From positions 1 to 10,446 of the forward strand of contig VXZL01000334.1 of the NCBI GenBank assembly GCA_009845505.1: 10,446 nt of DNA. The letters run 5' to 3'. The notes beneath the pieces are model-generated. The model had not been told where the DNA came from, searched no databases, and saw only the letters and a list, made by a program, of their open reading frames with translations. This document shows, piece by piece, positions 2,828 to 10,381 of this stretch (the stretch's first letter is position 1; each line of letters starts with the position of its first letter). The DNA is from Candidatus Poribacteria bacterium (GTDB lineage Bacteria > Poribacteria > WGA-4E > WGA-3G). A program made the position numbers and the translations under genes.

Positions 2828-3268
2828 ATGTTGCAGAGACATCGACAAGTTCTCATTCTACTTGTAGGACTATTGTATGTTTATTCGGTATGCCCGCTTC
2901 TATGCTCGGCTTTTGAACAGAAGTTCTGTCACGATGGATCTCAAAAGGTCCTGCCCGGAACTGTAGAAGTCCAATCAAGCTGCTGCCGGAGTACCAAGAC
3001 AGGCGCAGCGGATGGAGCCGAAATACCGTCGGAAAGCGGTAAATTGTGTTGCTCGACCAATTTAGAACTTGTGATTCCAGATGACAGGCACAACACGTCC
3101 GAATTCCGTGAATTGATCGGACGGTCGCTCGTCTCAATCCTTCCTATCTCAGCGACTTTACCTATCACACCGTCGGAGTCACTCCAAACGCTCCGCATAC
3201 CTTTAATTTCCACGTTTTTCCCCGACCACTCTCTATCCCGTAGAGGTCCTCCATCTATCCTGTCTTAG
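2828..3268 (+). CDS. Small secreted Cys-rich protein of unknown function
   Basis: I do not recognise a named family. The 146-residue product begins with a basic n-region and a hydrophobic segment (about 8-21), so it is exported or membrane-tethered. Seven cysteines (22, 26, 34, 52, 53, 74, 75) include a CPLLC motif at the end of the hydrophobic segment and two adjacent pairs (CC). The C-terminus ends in an RRGPPSILS-like tail. Small secreted proteins with a similar tail occur beside CusABC-type genes in other bacteria as far as I recall, but I cannot verify homology here. Position directly behind the main promoter and ahead of metal-handling genes suggests a periplasmic metal-binding or sensing accessory role; that is inference. 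GGAG lies 11 nt before the ATG. The last third has no cysteine. Confidence 0.6.
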   Translation: MLQRHRQVLILLVGLLYVYSVCPLLCSAFEQKFCHDGSQKVLPGTVEVQSSCCRSTKTGAADGAEIPSESGKLCCSTNLELVIPDDRHNTSEFRELIGRSLVSILPISATLPITPSESLQTLRIPLISTFFPDHSLSRRGPPSILS

Positions 3269-3459: not shown

Positions 3460-4509
3460 ATGAAAATGCGTTTGTTTTTCTGCGTGATGTTGTTCAGTTG
3501 GGTTTTTGTCTCTTTCGGATTCGCACAAGAGAGTTGCCCAGCTTGAAGCAATCCCGTCTTACCGCCAAGCGGTATGATGAGTGAAGTCAGTTTGGCTTCA
3601 AAAGAGATAGAGCAATTTCAAGTAAATGTCAATATGTTGGTTTCGCCTGATGCACGAGGTGGGCATCGAGCGTCAACAGGGCTGTCTGCAGCAGGAGAGA
3701 TAATAGATGCTCCTTTGCATAGACACCGTGTGGCGTTGAGTACTTACCGGATTGATGTTGGGTTACAATACTTGCTTAACGATCAATGGATGTTGCAGGC
3801 AAATGTTCCGTATGCGGTCAAAGACCAAAGAGCAAGCATTGAGTGGATTGATCCGGTGACTACCGAAGATAAGCAAGCCATTTTGCGGAGTAGAGACATC
3901 CATCATCGGAATGAAACCTATACCGGGCTTGCGGATTCAGATTTGTTCTTGGGCTATAAGTTTCGTGGGCTTTTTAAAGCAGGTGATATATTGTTTGCCC
4001 GGTTAGGCACAACGATTCCAACCGGTAGAACAGAAGAAAATCCATGGAAACTTGGGGATGCCGGCATCGAACATCTCCATATCCAATTCGGCACTGGTAC
4101 CTTTAACCCAATTGTTAATTTGCGATACAGTTTACCTCTCTATCGGGGTATGATGATCACTGCTTCGACACGTGGCACGTTTCCGTTCTATGAAAATAGC
4201 AAGACGTATCGAGGTCCAGTGGAGTTAAGCTATACAGCCGGTTTTATGTATCGTCTCTTTGATTGGCTTTCATTTAATGGAAACTATCTCGGATTTTATC
4301 AATCCGCTGCCATTTGGGATGGGGAGCGTGATATTAATACCGGACTGCGTTATAGCATGGCAGCCCTTGGTATGTCTTTGGCAACGCTGGATGGCATTAC
4401 CGTCTCCGCCAATGTCATGTTTCCATTGACGCAAGAGACTCTTTATGATGAAGGCGATGCCATTGAATTTGGCAATTTGGTTTCTTTGACCACGACCTAC
4501 TCATTTTAA
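3460..4509 (+). CDS. Outer-membrane beta-barrel protein, apparently read through an in-frame UGA (candidate CxxU selenoprotein)
   Basis: The uninterrupted frame 3574-4509 (311 residues) is rich in alternating beta strands and ends in aromatic Phe, as barrels do. It contains TIPTGRTEENP, reminiscent of outer-membrane 'MetA-pathway/transporter-like' barrels. It has no signal peptide. In the same frame, ATG 3460 begins a clear Sec signal (MKMRLFFCVMLFSWVFVSFG, cleavage after F-A-22). The mature start is then QESCPA, UGA (3544-3546), SNPVLPPSG, and the barrel. Only this UGA separates signal and barrel. Read through, the protein has 349 residues with C26-P-A-U29, a redox-type CxxU motif. ATG 3460 has no obvious Shine-Dalgarno. 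A hairpin follows the UGA. Alternatives are a TGC-to-TGA mutation or sequencing error, or a 28-codon leader peptide before an unexported protein, which is unlikely for a barrel. The barrel call is fairly firm; recoding is a hypothesis. Confidence 0.6.
3553..3581 (+). promoter_or_regulatory. SECIS-like hairpin just downstream of the in-frame UGA
   Basis: The upper stem TACCGC (3560-3565) pairs perfectly with GCGGTA (3569-3574) around a CAA loop. Below a U-U mismatch (3559/3575) four more pairs form (3555-3558 with 3576-3579, one of them G-U). A C-A mismatch and a terminal C-G pair (3553/3581) follow. The UGA ends 6 nt before the stem, and the loop lies 19 nt after it, within the range of bacterial SECIS elements. 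The expected G near the start of the loop is present only if the top two pairs open (loop GCCAAGC). It could also be a chance hairpin. Confidence 0.35.
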
Positions 4510-4612: not shown

Positions 4613-5242
4613 ATGAAGATGAAAGCGATGGGGCGAATTGTTGCCTCTTTCTTTGCAATTACCACCGTCCTGCTGTTTTTAGTCTTTTCGCTTAAGGCAG
4701 AGAACGCGCATAAAGCGCATGAGACCCATCAGCATGGTGATCACGTGGCTGCTGATGACAAAGTACGTTGTGCAGTTGATGGCATGATGATGAAGCCTTC
4801 GGCGATGGTTAAAGTTGAACAGGACGGAAAAGTCTACTATTTCTGCAACGACATGCAGGCAGAGATGTTTAAGGCGGATCCAGATAAGTTCCTCCAAACG
4901 ATTTCAGTAGGAAATTTGACTTTCGATCTCAACGTGTTAACTACGGATGCTTATAAAGGAATGATGTCTCACATGGGAATGGGAGGCATGATAAAAGCCG
5001 ATGAGATTAAGGGAAAAACACACTATTTCAGTGTGTACCCGATACAAGGTCACGGAGAGGCTACGTTAGGCGATGTGAAGCTCGCCCTTCAGGTTACCAA
5101 TGCCGAAGGGGAGACGAAGATGACATTGCTGAAATATGGTAAAATGACTCGCACCTACGAAGGGTTTATCGCTATGCCAATGGGTGATGAACACGAGGTT
5201 CGCATTCGGGTGACGAGTCCTGCTGTTAAAATTTCACTTTAG
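4613..5242 (+). CDS. Periplasmic YHS/TRASH-like heavy-metal-binding protein
   Basis: The 209-residue product has an N-terminal signal anchor or signal peptide (hydrophobic 8-27), then a His-rich stretch (H33, H36, H39, H41, H44). A YHS-like module at about 51-94 contains C53, D-G-M-M-M, YYFCND (C78) and F-x4-DPDKF. A C-terminal beta-rich region (about 98-209) includes a Met-rich stretch, MMSHMGMGGM (117-126). YHS/TRASH domains bind soft metals such as copper. The added His and Met clusters fit Cu(I)/Ag(I) handling in the periplasm. Compared with typical YHS modules, the CGM motif is DGM here and the second Cys after FC is replaced by Met, so the ligand set is altered. AGGAG lies 6 nt before the ATG. 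It sits between the barrel gene and the TolC genes, and a chaperone or scavenger role feeding the efflux pump is inference. Confidence 0.75.
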   Translation: MKMKAMGRIVASFFAITTVLLFLVFSLKAENAHKAHETHQHGDHVAADDKVRCAVDGMMMKPSAMVKVEQDGKVYYFCNDMQAEMFKADPDKFLQTISVGNLTFDLNVLTTDAYKGMMSHMGMGGMIKADEIKGKTHYFSVYPIQGHGEATLGDVKLALQVTNAEGETKMTLLKYGKMTRTYEGFIAMPMGDEHEVRIRVTSPAVKISL

Positions 5243-5343: not shown

Positions 5344-6702
5344 ATGATGCGTAAAGTTAGTGTGCTTTACCAAGTCGCAGTCGTCACTATTGGAAGTGTG
5401 CTGATGTTTGGTATTCTGGTACAAATGGAGGCATACGGAATGACGCAGACAGTGCCAACGCCGGAGCAAACTGATGGGACGACGCTGTTTGCTGAGACGC
5501 TTGAACTGCCAAGTTTAATTCGGGCTGCTGTTGAGCGAAGTCCAAAAGTTAAAGCTGCAAAAGCGCGGTGGCAGGCGACAATTGAGCAATACCTGCAAGT
5601 AACGGCATTGCCTGATCCGATGTTCATGTATGGTTACTTTTTGCGAAGCGTGGAGACGCGCGTGGGGCCTCAGCGTCATCGGGTTAGTTTTTCACAGACA
5701 TTTCCGTACCCTGGTACGCTTGATACGGCAGGGGAGGTCATCAAGAAGGCAATTGAGATTGAGCGAGTCAAGCACGAACAGGTGATACGTGATCTTATTG
5801 TTGAATTGAAACTGGGTTACCACGAGTTGGCATATCTCCAACGGGCAGTCGAGGTGACGCGACAGAATCACGAACTGGTAGCCTCTATTCTCACGATTGC
5901 CACCACTCGTTATGCCGAAGGCAAGGCTGTGCTCAATGATGTCCTGAATGCACAGAGCCAACTCGCGCAATTGGAATATGATCTTATCCTGCTGGAGGAG
6001 TTACAACGCGTTGAACATGCAAACATCACAGGAATTCTATCGATTCCTTCAGCAACGGCACTGGGTCCGACAATGCCTGTTCCGTACGAACCGCTTGATG
6101 TAGGATTGGTTGATATAGAGAAACAAGCATTGTCAAAACGGCAGGAATTACGGATTGCCGGATTAAGCATTGAGAAAGCTAGCGAGGGGATTGCACTTGC
6201 AGAACTTCAAACCAAACCCATGCTTAAGCTTGATTTAATGACAATAGAAACGGGTAAAGCCTTGATGCAGGACACCCTTGGTAGTGGTAAAAATCCGTTC
6301 ACCATCGGTTTTGGTATAACAATTCCGTGGTCGGATCTAAAGAATAGTAGCAAGGTTCGAGAAGCTCAGCAAAATCATGAGGTCGTTAAGGCGAACAAGC
6401 ATTCCCTTGAGGATACAACGCGGGTTGCCCTCCGAAAGATTTATTTTCGACTTGAGAACGCGCGACGGCTCGTTGAACTCTATGAGACCACGCTTATCCC
6501 ACAAGCAGGTGCTGCTATTGAAGTTGCTGAGACATGGCACCAAGAAGGTCCCAAAAGCATTACTGGGTTTCTTGAGACGCAGAGCGTCTGGTTGAATTTT
6601 AATCTCGCTCGCCTGCGTGCGATTGCGGACTATCAGCAGAACCTCGCTCGGTTAGAGCAGCTCGTCGGGGGAAGGATTGATGATTCACAGACTACGCAGT
6701 AG
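5344..6702 (+). CDS. TolC-family outer-membrane efflux factor (CusC-type), first copy
   Basis: The 452-residue product has a signal peptide (hydrophobic about 10-27, cleavage near A30-Y-G). Two outer-membrane-factor repeats follow, dominated by long coiled helices (about 56-235 and 258-442). The segment GPQRHRVSFSQTFPYPGTL (108-126) is typical of heavy-metal-type members of the TolC family. The C-terminal LYETTLIPQ (379-387) and the helix ending in NLARLEQLVG are also family hallmarks. It would form the trimeric exit channel for an RND pump. No lipobox is present, in contrast to its neighbour. AAGGAG ends 3 nt before ATG 5344 and 6 nt before the adjacent ATG 5347; the second may be the true start. 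Its last 23 bp overlap the next gene, so the two are translationally coupled. Confidence 0.88.
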   Translation: MMRKVSVLYQVAVVTIGSVLMFGILVQMEAYGMTQTVPTPEQTDGTTLFAETLELPSLIRAAVERSPKVKAAKARWQATIEQYLQVTALPDPMFMYGYFLRSVETRVGPQRHRVSFSQTFPYPGTLDTAGEVIKKAIEIERVKHEQVIRDLIVELKLGYHELAYLQRAVEVTRQNHELVASILTIATTRYAEGKAVLNDVLNAQSQLAQLEYDLILLEELQRVEHANITGILSIPSATALGPTMPVPYEPLDVGLVDIEKQALSKRQELRIAGLSIEKASEGIALAELQTKPMLKLDLMTIETGKALMQDTLGSGKNPFTIGFGITIPWSDLKNSSKVREAQQNHEVVKANKHSLEDTTRVALRKIYFRLENARRLVELYETTLIPQAGAAIEVAETWHQEGPKSITGFLETQSVWLNFNLARLRAIADYQQNLARLEQLVGGRIDDSQTTQ

Positions 6703-8380
6703 AGACAGACTGCAATATCTATTTGCTCGAATGGTTGTGTTGTTCAGACACGTTCAACGTAACGCCATTTTCAGCACACTGTATCGCTACTTTTTTCACT
6801 ATCGGGAATGTTCTGTTCCCTTATTCATCAGCCTTATGATGTTCACTATTCTGGTAGGTGGATGTGCGAATCATCAACTGGAAACGTACCAAGAATTGCG
6901 TGACACTGCGTTAACGCAACCAGTATATTACTATACGGAGATAGAAGAGAAGATTGCTGATGCTGAGAACGAACCGATTGTGGAACCGGACCCGTTTCTC
7001 AGCGAAATTGAAGCAGAGGTGTTGAAATATCAGAAAGAGTGGCAAGCGCGATTAGAAAGTGAGACACCGATGCCAAATCTGTTTTACGATGTTTCAACAG
7101 ACCCTGTGAAAGCTTATCGTCAATTGGCAGCGTCTCCTGAAGCAGCACAGGCGCGGCTTGCTGAGCCGATTACGTTGGAACTCCTTGTGGCATTCGGGTA
7201 CGAGTGGAACCCAGGGTTGAAATCTATCCGAGAAAAAATTCGGGCGATACTGAAACGATATCCGCAGGCTGCTTACTTAGAGAACGTGTTACGCCAGTAT
7301 AACGCCTTCACAAAACAACTGGATACGAAAGTTGGACCGAAACAGCATAAAGAGATGATGGCAATGAAATTTCCGTTCCCGGGGACCTTAGCATTAAAAG
7401 GACGGATTATTACTGAGGATGTACTAATTGCGGAAAAAGAGTTTGAAATCGCTCTGCGTGATCTGGTGACCGAAATCAGGTTAGCTTACTACGATTATCT
7501 TTTTGTTACTGAGGCGATCCGTATTAACGAAGAAAATCAAAAATTGCTGGAGCAGATGATTGCTATTGCTCAGACAAAGTTTCGCGTAGGACGGGGCAAA
7601 TATTCAAACGTTATTATGGCGCAGGTAGAGTTATCGAAATTGGCGAATACAATTATTACGCTCGAACAACAGCGGGAGACTGTTATTGCGCGTCTTAATA
7701 CGTTGTTGAACGTTTCTGCGGATTTGCCGTTAGGAGTTCCAGTGCTAATTGAAGAGAGTAGCGTTATACCTACTTTGGCTGAGTTGTATCCGTTATCAGT
7801 TGAGAAACGTCAGGAAATCCAAAAACAGAAGTTGGCAATCAGTAAGATAGGTTTGGCTGTGGAAATGGCGAATCAAATGACATATCCTGACCCGACTCTG
7901 GGTTCGAGTTACTTTGAAAATCGGAGTATGGGAGACTTAAAACACAAAGAAAAAATGCCGATGACATTTTCCACGAGACGTACATTGAATCCAGCAAATA
8001 CGGCATGGTTCGCACATCGAGGTTCGTATATCCATGAAATGGATGTCAAGATTGAAGCGATGACGCATCAGGTTGAGAAACTCGAAAGCGATCTTCGCTT
8101 TGTTGTGAAAAAACATCATTTCGCTATGGAAACAGCAAATCGGAGTATTCGGCTCTATCGACAGACGCTGCTGCCGCAGGCACGGCAGGCGTTGGATGCC
8201 TCGAACACGGCTTACCAAGCGGCACAAATTGACTTTTTGAGTTTTCTTGACGCGCAACGTACTTTATTAAATTTGAGGATTGAAGAACAGCGAGCATTGC
8301 GCGATTATCGCCAACATCTCGCCCAGTTAGAACAGGCAGTTGGGATAATATTACCAAAGCAGCCATTGACTCGAGAATAG
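6680..8380 (+). CDS. TolC-family outer-membrane efflux lipoprotein, second copy with N-terminal extension
   Basis: The 566-residue product is paralogous to the preceding gene. Shared blocks are GP-x-x-H before FPFPGTL (230-236 here), LYRQTLLPQA (492-501) and a closing HLAQLEQAVG. A lipobox V-G-G-C62 follows a hydrophobic segment (about 46-60), so the mature protein should be lipidated and held in the outer membrane like CusC or OprM. About 100 extra residues (63-165) precede the first TolC repeat. About 44 basic or polar residues precede the signal core, unusually long, so a later start is possible (for example ATG 6731), though a GGGGGAAGG purine run lies just before ATG 6680. It overlaps the first TolC gene by 23 bp in another frame. 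Whether the pair forms mixed channels or serves two pumps is unknown. Confidence 0.88.
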   Translation: MIHRLRSRDRLQYLFARMVVLFRHVQRNAIFSTLYRYFFHYRECSVPLFISLMMFTILVGGCANHQLETYQELRDTALTQPVYYYTEIEEKIADAENEPIVEPDPFLSEIEAEVLKYQKEWQARLESETPMPNLFYDVSTDPVKAYRQLAASPEAAQARLAEPITLELLVAFGYEWNPGLKSIREKIRAILKRYPQAAYLENVLRQYNAFTKQLDTKVGPKQHKEMMAMKFPFPGTLALKGRIITEDVLIAEKEFEIALRDLVTEIRLAYYDYLFVTEAIRINEENQKLLEQMIAIAQTKFRVGRGKYSNVIMAQVELSKLANTIITLEQQRETVIARLNTLLNVSADLPLGVPVLIEESSVIPTLAELYPLSVEKRQEIQKQKLAISKIGLAVEMANQMTYPDPTLGSSYFENRSMGDLKHKEKMPMTFSTRRTLNPANTAWFAHRGSYIHEMDVKIEAMTHQVEKLESDLRFVVKKHHFAMETANRSIRLYRQTLLPQARQALDASNTAYQAAQIDFLSFLDAQRTLLNLRIEEQRALRDYRQHLAQLEQAVGIILPKQPLTRE

Positions 8381-8396
8381 TCTTTTCTTGTATAGA
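8366..8396 (+). promoter_or_regulatory. Possible MerR/CueR-type promoter-operator before the adaptor gene
   Basis: TTGACT (8366-8371) and TATAGA (8391-8396) are 19 bp apart, the stretched spacing typical of MerR-family metal-responsive promoters. The spacer contains an imperfect dyad, CGAGAA (8372-8377), 7 bp, TTCTTG (8385-8390), with 5 of 6 positions complementary. The element overlaps the end of the second TolC gene, about 90 bp before the adaptor start. The -10 is only 4/6 and no regulator gene is seen, so confidence is modest. Confidence 0.35.
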
Positions 8397-8431
8397 ATCT
8401 TAACGTGTATTCGTTGCTAATTTCTTTTGAG

Positions 8432-8443
8432 AGACGCGCGTCT
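8432..8443. promoter_or_regulatory. Perfect 12-bp palindrome AGACGCGCGTCT
   Basis: This self-complementary GC-rich dodecamer lies in the 105-bp gap before the adaptor gene, 42 bp upstream of its start and about 30 bp downstream of the possible promoter start. It could be an operator. No T-run follows, so it is not an intrinsic terminator. Confidence 0.25.
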
Positions 8444-8485
8444 AATCCGTAAAGCAAAACACGGACAATACAAGGAGTTCACAAA

Positions 8486-10381
8486 ATGTATAAAAATTTC
8501 TACCTTGCAACCGCACTGATAATTACCGTGCTTTTTATATTCGGCTGTAATCAGCAAGAGAACGCTGAAATGGCGCATCGTGTTAGTGAAGAACATGACT
8601 CAGTATCGAAGGACCTATCGGGTATGGATGAACACGCTGACCATACGTCAATGGTAGCATCCTCAGATGAAGCAAAAGCGATTCGGTTCTGGACTTGTGT
8701 TATGCACCCCACGGTCAAAATGCCAGAACCCGGTAGTTGTCCGGTTTGTAAGATGGATCTGATTCCTATCTACGAAGGTTCAGGGTTAGAACTCACTGAA
8801 CAACAGAAGGCGTTAATTCCGGTGCGCACCGAGCCGGTCGTTTTCCGAGAGGTATCGCGTGAAATCCGAACCGTTGGTGTTTTGGATTATAACGAGACGC
8901 GTATGGCTTATGCTTCAACACGAATCTCCGGATGGATTGAGGACTTGCACATTGACTTTACCGGTATCAAGGTGCGTGAGGAGGACGAACTTTTGTCTAT
9001 CTACAGCCCGGAATTAGTCACAGCACAAGAAGAATATCTGACAGCACTTAAAAGTATTGAGGAACTTCAGAATACAGAATACGTGCAACTTCGCAAATCG
9101 GTTGAACAGACGCTTACCGCTGCGAAGTCTAAACTTGAATTGTACGGATTAACCTTAAACCAGATTGAGGATATTCGTAACCGTGGGGAAGTCAGTACAA
9201 CTTTACCACTGTTCGCTCCGATGGCTGGTACCGTAGTTCACATGAACGTGAGCCAAGGTCAACATGTAAACAGAGGTATGAATCTTTACCGTATTGCGGA
9301 TCTCAGTAGTTTATGGATTATGGCGGATGTTTACGAATATGAACTGCCGTGGATTTACATGGGGCAAGCGGTTGAAATTACGACACAGTCAATGCCTGGG
9401 CAAACATTTTCTGGCAAAGTTACTTACATTTATCCATTCTTTGACACACAAACACGGACCCAGAAAGTTCAAATAGAGGTGCCTAATCCGACTGGACGAC
9501 TCCGTCCAGGGATGTATGTAACGCTTCAGATAAAACCGACACTTGCAGAAATCTATACCCATGGCGCGATCTCTCAAGCACCGTATGCCTGCCCGATGCA
9601 TCCATGGATTACTTCTGAACATCCCACTGAATGTGAAATATGTGGTATGGATCTGGAGCTGACACATTCCGATATCATGGGGTCTAAAGTAGAGGGAAAG
9701 TGGGTCTGCCCGATGCATCCTGAGGTACAATCTGAGGAATTCAGTGAATGCTCTATCTGCGGTATGGATCTCGTTGAAAGAGCGGAGGTATCTGCACCGG
9801 CAGAAACTCCAGCAACTGTTTGGACGTGTCCGATGCATCCTGAAGTGCAGTCTGAAGAATTCGGAGAATGTCCTATCTGTGGCATGGATCTCGTTGAAAA
9901 ACAGCCGACGGCGACAGGAACTGACACCCATTTCCATACACATCAACCAACGGTCCATTCAGATCTGCCACCACTGATTTTCAAATATGTATGTCCTGAC
10001 CATCCCGATGAGTATGCGACTGTACCGGGGCTATGTTCGCGTGATGGAAAGCCACTTCTTATGACCGGTGAAGTCTTAACTGTTCCTAAGAGTGCGGTCA
10101 TTAACACGGGTTTACGGAAGATAGTCTTCGTGGATCGTGGCAAATCGGGTTATGAACAGATTGAAGTTGAGGTGGGCCCTGAAGCTTGGGGAACATCGGA
10201 TGGTTCGCAAACTAAATGCCGATACTATCCCATCGTTAGTGAGCTTACCCCTGGCGATATGGTTGTTACGCATGGCAATTTCCTGATAGACTCACAGACG
10301 CAATTGACGGGTTCTGCATCAGGTGCTTATGGTGGCGCGCTCGGCGGTGAAGAATCAAAACCGCCTGTCCATCAACATTAA
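8486..10381 (+). CDS. CusB-like RND efflux adaptor lipoprotein with multiple heavy-metal-binding modules
   Basis: The 631-residue product is a predicted lipoprotein (hydrophobic 7-20, I-F-G-C21). A His/Met-containing linker leads to a first heavy-metal-binding module (residues 69-95: C71-V-M-H-P, C85-P-V-C88-K-M). Adaptor domains follow: barrel-sandwich halves around a helical hairpin (about 128-270, hairpin near 175-232) and a beta-barrel ending at LRPGMYVTLQ. The membrane-proximal domain resumes at LTVPKSAVINTGLRKIVFVD (531-550). The closing TPGDMVVTHGNFLIDSQTQL (588-607) matches heavy-metal adaptors. Between barrel and membrane-proximal domain lies an insertion of about 175 residues. It contains three further modules starting at 367, 406 and 446 (each CPMHP...C-x-x-C-GMDL) and a degenerate fifth at 501-526. 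AAGGAG sits 8 nt before the ATG. The pump gene should follow beyond the window. Copper or silver is the likeliest substrate by family. Confidence 0.92.
   Translation: MYKNFYLATALIITVLFIFGCNQQENAEMAHRVSEEHDSVSKDLSGMDEHADHTSMVASSDEAKAIRFWTCVMHPTVKMPEPGSCPVCKMDLIPIYEGSGLELTEQQKALIPVRTEPVVFREVSREIRTVGVLDYNETRMAYASTRISGWIEDLHIDFTGIKVREEDELLSIYSPELVTAQEEYLTALKSIEELQNTEYVQLRKSVEQTLTAAKSKLELYGLTLNQIEDIRNRGEVSTTLPLFAPMAGTVVHMNVSQGQHVNRGMNLYRIADLSSLWIMADVYEYELPWIYMGQAVEITTQSMPGQTFSGKVTYIYPFFDTQTRTQKVQIEVPNPTGRLRPGMYVTLQIKPTLAEIYTHGAISQAPYACPMHPWITSEHPTECEICGMDLELTHSDIMGSKVEGKWVCPMHPEVQSEEFSECSICGMDLVERAEVSAPAETPATVWTCPMHPEVQSEEFGECPICGMDLVEKQPTATGTDTHFHTHQPTVHSDLPPLIFKYVCPDHPDEYATVPGLCSRDGKPLLMTGEVLTVPKSAVINTGLRKIVFVDRGKSGYEQIEVEVGPEAWGTSDGSQTKCRYYPIVSELTPGDMVVTHGNFLIDSQTQLTGSASGAYGGALGGEESKPPVHQH
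9701..9901 (+). repeat. Tandem duplicated metal-binding module inside the adaptor gene
   Basis: Two 81-bp units (9701-9781 and 9821-9901) lie 120 bp apart. By hand alignment they match at 66 of 81 bases and 23 of 27 residues, and many of the differences are third-position silent changes. A more diverged copy begins at 9584. The pattern indicates internal duplication of a CPMHP...CxxCGMDL module followed by purifying selection on the metal-binding residues. Confidence 0.8.

Follow-up and report, generated by a model that had tools for sequence, protein, structure and literature searches.

The described outer-membrane channels that are most like the protein presented here in predicted fold are those of COG4313, known in Pfam as Phenol_MetA_deg (PF13557), and the amyloid secretion channel FapF, which has an N-terminal plug domain. 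We know of no Cys/Sec motif at the N-terminus of any member of the COG4313/PF13557 family. Selenoproteins are mostly cytosolic or periplasmic and, to our knowledge, none of them is an outer-membrane barrel. Selenoprotein L, a diselenide protein of aquatic animals, contains a UxxU motif with two selenocysteines spaced by two residues. This spacing is also found in many members of the family described below, whereas the fold of Selenoprotein L is unrelated and its eukaryotic SECIS is located in the 3' UTR. In E. coli fdhF, the SECIS is a hairpin that lies 3' of the UGA, still within the coding sequence, and has G and U in its apical loop; the loops of known bacterial SECIS elements lie nearer to the UGA than 43 nt. 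Here, we analysed a stretch of 10,446 nucleotides from a Candidatus Poribacteria bacterium (contig VXZL01000334.1), hereafter referred to as the window. Judging from sequence comparison and a structural model, its positions 3460-4509 very probably encode a selenoprotein with a selenocysteine in an outer-membrane barrel, a judgement that does not extend to any role in metal handling.

The gene can be followed in a single frame from the ATG at 3460 through MKMRLFFCVMLFSWVFVSFGFAQESCPA to a TGA at 3544-3546, and from there through SNPVLPPSGMMSEV... to the TAA at 4507-4509 (Table 1). When this TGA is read as U, it corresponds to U29 of the 349 residues of the read-through open reading frame. The protein comprises, in this order, the signal peptide MKMRLFFCVMLFSWVFVSFGFA, delimited by eye, the residues QESCPA, the TGA, the residues SNPVLPPSG, and the barrel. 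The same architecture of signal peptide, CxxU motif, and barrel is present in the 36 window-type orthologues with a complete N-terminus. Without read-through, the open reading frame would be restricted to 3574-4509, and the resulting 311 residues would include no signal peptide. A first-pass annotation of the window had already proposed an in-frame TGA between signal peptide and barrel, and the read-through translation, which requires no shift of frame, confirms it.

Table 1 Features of the barrel locus in the window
Feature	Positions	Strand	Basis and remarks
Probable selenoprotein gene, complete: signal peptide, CxxU N-terminus, and outer-membrane beta-barrel	3460..4509	+	Read-through translation; 349 aa, TAA stop
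Signal peptide, codons 1-22	3460..3525	+	From sequence; cleavage after GFA judged by eye; dN/dS 0.31 (36 orthologues)
CxxU motif: Cys26 (TGC 3535-3537), Pro, Ala, predicted Sec29 (TGA 3544-3546)	3535..3546	+	Codon counts at site 1 and site 2, 115 members
Barrel domain, start at about residue 53	3616..4506	+	
Hairpin H1, first after the UGA; pairing varies by subfamily	3555..3579	+	Single-sequence fold; RNAalifold
Hairpin H2, UGAAGUCA-GUU-UGGCUUCA, SECIS-like, GUU apical loop at 3590-3592	3582..3600	+	Covariation, synonymous constraint
Cys-rich protein of 146 aa, probably secreted	2828..3268	+	No Pfam match; tblastn match in 36/36 fetched window-type loci
YHS-domain protein	4613..5242	+	Pfam YHS 29.4 bits, just under the cut-off of 30.3; 32.1 bits (over the cut-off) in L237
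Two TolC/CusC-like outer-membrane efflux proteins and a CusB-like adaptor	5344..10381	+	Pfam OEP (twice), HlyD_D23, HMBD

Using the read-through protein (P0001) as the query, we searched 84 genomes of the phylum. A family match was obtained in 66 of them, and neither TAA nor TAG was listed inside these matches. Among the 119 family loci examined (30 + 40 + 40, and 9 of a further 20), 115 possess the complete N-terminal motif, and all 115 exhibit a TGA at the codon corresponding to U29 (site 2), including those of the single-contig genomes G079, G081, G082, and G083. The TGA at 3544-3546 is thus not a chance occurrence. At the first position of the motif (site 1), the codon is TGT or TGC in 37 of the 115 members, namely 36 window-type members with QESCPAU and one with QDSCSAU, and TGA in 78, which exhibit SUGAU or variants such as GUGAU. 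The single UGA reported by the first-pass annotation holds for the window type, most relatives outside this type having two. It had also been asked whether homologues exhibit Cys or UGA at residue 29: UGA is universal among the motif-bearing members, whereas Cys is found there in none of the 115.

Both forms coexist in the genome of the window, which holds, besides the CPAU copy, a paralogue with UGAU (L058) on contig C153. The paralogues L058 (G000:C153), L059-L089, and L171-L218 nearly all show two TGAs nine bases apart (UGAUSNP), followed by the same downstream hairpin. The four loci outside the 115 are L057, which is cut by a contig end, L090, which is frameshifted yet keeps both TGAs, and L217 and L219, which are pieces without the motif. 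One of the 115, L218, is decayed and comprises 141 residues. L186, a two-UGA member, carries one further TGA at residue 60, at a Trp codon (Trp in its relative L184), in a gene that is otherwise open; this is presumably a null allele or an error. In addition, 18 of the 115 members terminate in TGA, so UGA has two meanings within one gene, whereas all eight window genes use stops other than TGA.

A scan of genome contigs kept 80 of 112 relatives, all 80 of which are labelled as Poribacteria; 79 of them contain the motif and the other, L118, is cut by a contig end. These relatives largely repeat the 84 genomes and are excluded from the counts. Also left out are 17 weak barrel matches (20-36 bits), in which the N-terminus is uncovered; seven of the 17 were fetched (L220-L226) and the barrel of L223 was read. 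L223 encodes a distant barrel of 352 aa with weak similarity to the family, with His and Met near its N-terminus and no TGA. Homologues were not found in plasmids, and the 30 pattern matches in viral contigs include no relative.

With regard to selection, pS is high and pN is low on each side of the UGA in the 36 window-type orthologues, which indicates that both flanks are translated in frame. The values are 0.634 and 0.000, respectively, for residues 23-28, before the UGA, and 0.392 and 0.032 for residues 30-40, after it. The earlier impression that the flanking codons are coding is borne out by this excess of synonymous over nonsynonymous change. The barrel (residues 49-349) shows a pS of 0.509, a pN of 0.090, and a dN/dS of 0.11. 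A markedly different pattern is observed for codons 42-48 (3583-3603), at the hairpin H2, where pS is 0.001 versus 0.509 in the rest of the barrel. These seven codons form the longest synonymously invariant run of the gene, the next longest being two, as counted over degenerate codons among the sequences that share the majority residue; 1 of 100,000 permutations reaches this length. The other subfamilies exhibit a milder dip at the same place, with a mean synonymous entropy of 0.66 versus 1.25 for the whole gene (79 sequences together).

The hairpin H2 begins 35 nt past the UGA and its apical loop is located 43 nt past it. Three alignments were used: A1 with 16 sequences, A2 with the window and 48 of the 79 named sequences, and A3, the covariation alignment, with a hand-thinned selection of 61 from the 115 sequences (60 distinct rows). 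In A3, 95.8% of the cells of the H2 helix (columns 42-49/53-60) are paired, against 23-49% for slid versions of the helix. Compensatory double changes are observed at four of the eight pairs, in 19 cells versus 3.9 in shuffles, a number that 0 of 500 shuffles reach. The covariation score is 0.215 versus 0.154, and again 0 of 500 shuffles score as high. Two of the five covariation measures are not clearly above the shuffles, namely how many pairs show a double change (equalled by 54/500 shuffles) and how many further pair types occur (by 407/500). On the 61 sequences, RNAalifold recovers H2 together with a shorter helix between H2 and the UGA. The latter is related to H1 and has four pairs, one of which shows 11 double changes but 9 breaks, and H1 itself, between the UGA and H2, is only partly conserved. 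The divergent member L089 aligns poorly to the hairpin.

A covariance model of this region, applied to eight genomes, identified 15 places at E < 1e-9, all of them family copies (one being a decayed copy in G046). A match at G000:C396 (E 0.35; 0.42 for its counterpart in G055) was rejected as a chance match: it lies inside an ordinary TPR gene and does not itself begin with TGA. No Rfam family scored over its cut-off in the window. The covariation and the synonymous constraint point to H2 as a SECIS-like element, with putative binding of SelB and an unusual spacing. Like the fdhF SECIS, it is a coding-sequence hairpin that follows the UGA and has both G and U in its apical loop. In contrast to the fdhF element, the GU-bearing hairpin of the barrel gene is located further from the UGA, with another hairpin in between. 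As its loop lies beyond the usual bacterial range, H1 may bring it closer to the UGA. In two-UGA members, the UGAs, nine bases apart, have one H2-type element in common. The first-pass annotation did not include the downstream hairpin.

The exchange between Sec and Cys at site 1 was examined on an unrooted maximum-likelihood tree of 114 proteins, based on the part after the motif only; the short L218 was omitted. Cys at this site needs two changes on the tree, and these are forced by well-supported branches. The tree indicates a minimum of two switches between Sec and Cys at site 1 and, being unrooted, does not give their direction. L086 (SUGAU, with Sec) and L087 (G026:C357, SCSAU, with Cys) are encoded by the same genome and, together with L088, are close relatives, Cys being present in L087 alone of the three. 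The tree program warned that the long branch of L089, beside L086-L088, may be misplaced. As the UGAU form (Sec-Gly-Ala-Sec) is more widespread, it is perhaps the older form of the family. The retention of the UGA in homologues and the exchange with Cys at the first motif position both favour the selenocysteine reading put forward initially.

The sel genes had been suggested as a further check. The assembly of the window, a draft of 86.5% completeness, contains a tRNA-Sec with anticodon UCA (78 bits; cut-off 47), which adjoins selB (351 bits) on contig C335, and selA (589 bits) on contig C15, whereas no selD over the cut-off was found there. selD is present in nine of ten chosen genomes, including the same-species genome G055, each time with one TGA; the in-frame TGA lies in CGUA in L231 and in CAGUA in L232-L236. 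SelD is a known kind of selenoprotein and likewise has one in-frame TGA in this phylum, but it is an enzyme of selenium metabolism and no barrel, and in six loci the single-sequence folds after its UGA differ from those of the barrel gene. A tRNA-Sec over the cut-off is found in 71 of the 84 genomes, including the single-contig genomes G023, G046, G079, and G081-G083. At E 1e-10, it was not found in eight of the 66 family-bearing genomes (G024, G029, G032, G035, G049, G059, G060, and G077), which are drafts with more than 100 contigs each, in a search filtered more strictly than that for the barrel. The machinery does not depend on the barrel protein, since 13 of the 18 genomes without the family also have tRNA-Sec.

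The structural model predicts a barrel of the COG4313/FapF channel type. The N-terminus, where the motif is located, is poorly predicted, with pLDDT below 50 for residues 12-29 and 39-49. In the barrel, seven His positions are invariant across 49 sequences. Identity to the COG4313 channel of PDB code 4rl8 is 13%, and the window protein scores 14.2 bits against PF13557, under the curated cut-off of 22; it is therefore considered a fold relative of COG4313 rather than a member. The comparison with FapF (PDB codes 5o65 and 5o67; identity 14%) concerns the fold only, and the Fap family is absent from the Pfam matches of the eight window proteins. For the window protein, no Pfam family and no NCBIfam model (June 2026) scored over its cut-off, and 16 members scanned against NCBIfam match at E 0.02 or weaker. 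A sequence search of solved structures gave one match at E 0.8 for P0001 and none for the A1 profile.

The genes downstream of the barrel gene in the window encode efflux components (Table 1), and four stretches of the CusB-like adaptor (8486-10381) match the heavy-metal-binding domain HMBD. The single-contig genome G083 exhibits the same gene order followed by a CusA-like RND pump (ACR_tran, L237); the window ends before the pump. With homologues of CusC, CusB, and CusA in a row, the pump being seen in G083, the locus is by its gene content a Cus-type RND efflux locus, although the barrel is no standard component of Cus-type systems. The metal-efflux setting noted by the first-pass annotation applies to 23 of the 36 fetched window-type loci, the window included, and thus not to all. 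Efflux genes were not seen in the fetched DNA, in some cases short, of the other 13, five of which have other genes. In L109 (5069-8741), on which Pfam was run, the efflux genes are replaced by genes for a YtkA-like protein, a protein with a weak FMN_bind match (under the cut-off), and a CxxCH protein; L092, L103, L108, and L112 look alike by eye. In L241 (7322-8573, G025), a Penicillinase_R-type repressor and an M56 peptidase are encoded directly upstream of a two-UGA barrel gene.

Other readings of the UGA have to be weighed against selenocysteine. If a sense codon had been mutated or misread to TGA, the gene would be dead or wrongly sequenced, and isolated decay does occur in the family (the extra TGA of L186, the frameshift of L090, and the decayed copies or pieces L217-L219). 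This is hardly conceivable for the motif TGA, which is present in 115 of 115 members from many assemblies, single-contig genomes included, in a gene whose barrel has a dN/dS of 0.11. The close relatives, in which varied disruptions would have indicated a pseudogene, keep the read-through frame otherwise undisrupted in all 36 window-type orthologues. It is also very improbable that a separate leader of 28 codons ends at the UGA and that the barrel is re-initiated at Met 3574. The window does have Met-Met at 3574, where the 311-aa open reading frame begins, but this Met is not conserved, being absent in four of the 36 window-type orthologues (L046, L048, L049, and L054) and in two-UGA members (e.g., GGIGEV and GGGSEV). 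Moreover, a barrel begun there would lack a signal peptide, residues 30-40 past the UGA are under protein selection, and the paralogues carry two UGAs three codons apart. The absence of TGA stops from the eight window genes would be compatible with a change of code, in which UGA stands for an ordinary amino acid such as Trp or Gly, or with nonspecific read-through. Nevertheless, TGA is the stop in 18 of the 115 members and in a TPR gene of L260, in the window's genome. The assembly also encodes selA, selB, and a tRNA-Sec whose anticodon is UCA, the UGA of site 1 is exchanged with Cys and with neither Trp nor Gly, and the hairpin would be left unexplained, which makes this reading highly unlikely. 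Selenocysteine at U29 is strongly supported by the sequence evidence, namely the conservation of the UGA, the coding selection on both sides, the Sec/Cys exchange, the covarying hairpin, and the machinery.

We propose that tRNA-Sec(UCA) and SelB decode the UGA at 3544-3546 as selenocysteine, guided by an RNA structure that follows the UGA inside the coding sequence and has the hairpin at 3582-3600 as its conserved core. The product would be exported, lose its signal peptide, and form an outer-membrane channel with the COG4313/FapF barrel fold, the mature N-terminus of which would carry the Cys-Pro-Ala-Sec pair. The location and role of this pair are the weakest step of the proposal. It may lie in the lumen or at the mouth on the periplasmic side, where it could bind a soft metal, such as Cu(I), Ag(I), or Hg(II), or form a selenenylsulfide or diselenide, and might control the passage of metal or of small molecules. 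As the window copy lies within a Cus-type efflux operon, we lean towards soft-metal binding. The fuller picture is tentative and somewhat short of probable: one or two N-terminal Sec of an outer-membrane channel would plug or gate its pore as a switch based on a soft metal or a diselenide, and in most members a single SECIS-like element would serve both UGAs, nine bases apart. In the same selenoprotein, the Cys/Sec pair could instead be a redox centre (selenenylsulfide or diselenide) for periplasmic electron or thiol exchange and not a metal site, which is a real possibility, if a little less than an even one. CxxU and UxxU are like the redox motifs of known selenoproteins, and the five loci with look-alike downstream genes, such as the YtkA-like, FMN_bind, and CxxCH proteins of L109, would be in line with such a role. 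In contrast, YHS and efflux genes adjoin the barrel gene in the window and at 22 further loci of the window type, the seven invariant His of the barrel suit metal binding, and the predicted fold is a barrel and not a thioredoxin-like domain.

Gene callers that read UGA as a stop are expected to cut genes of this kind, with loss of the signal peptide. The two-UGA members are a natural experiment on how two UGAs three codons apart may be served by one SECIS-like element. Outer-membrane channels with CxxU or UxxU would bring the chemistry of selenium to the surface of uncultured bacteria that are associated with sponges, and the barrel family offers a way into the metal handling of sponge symbionts.
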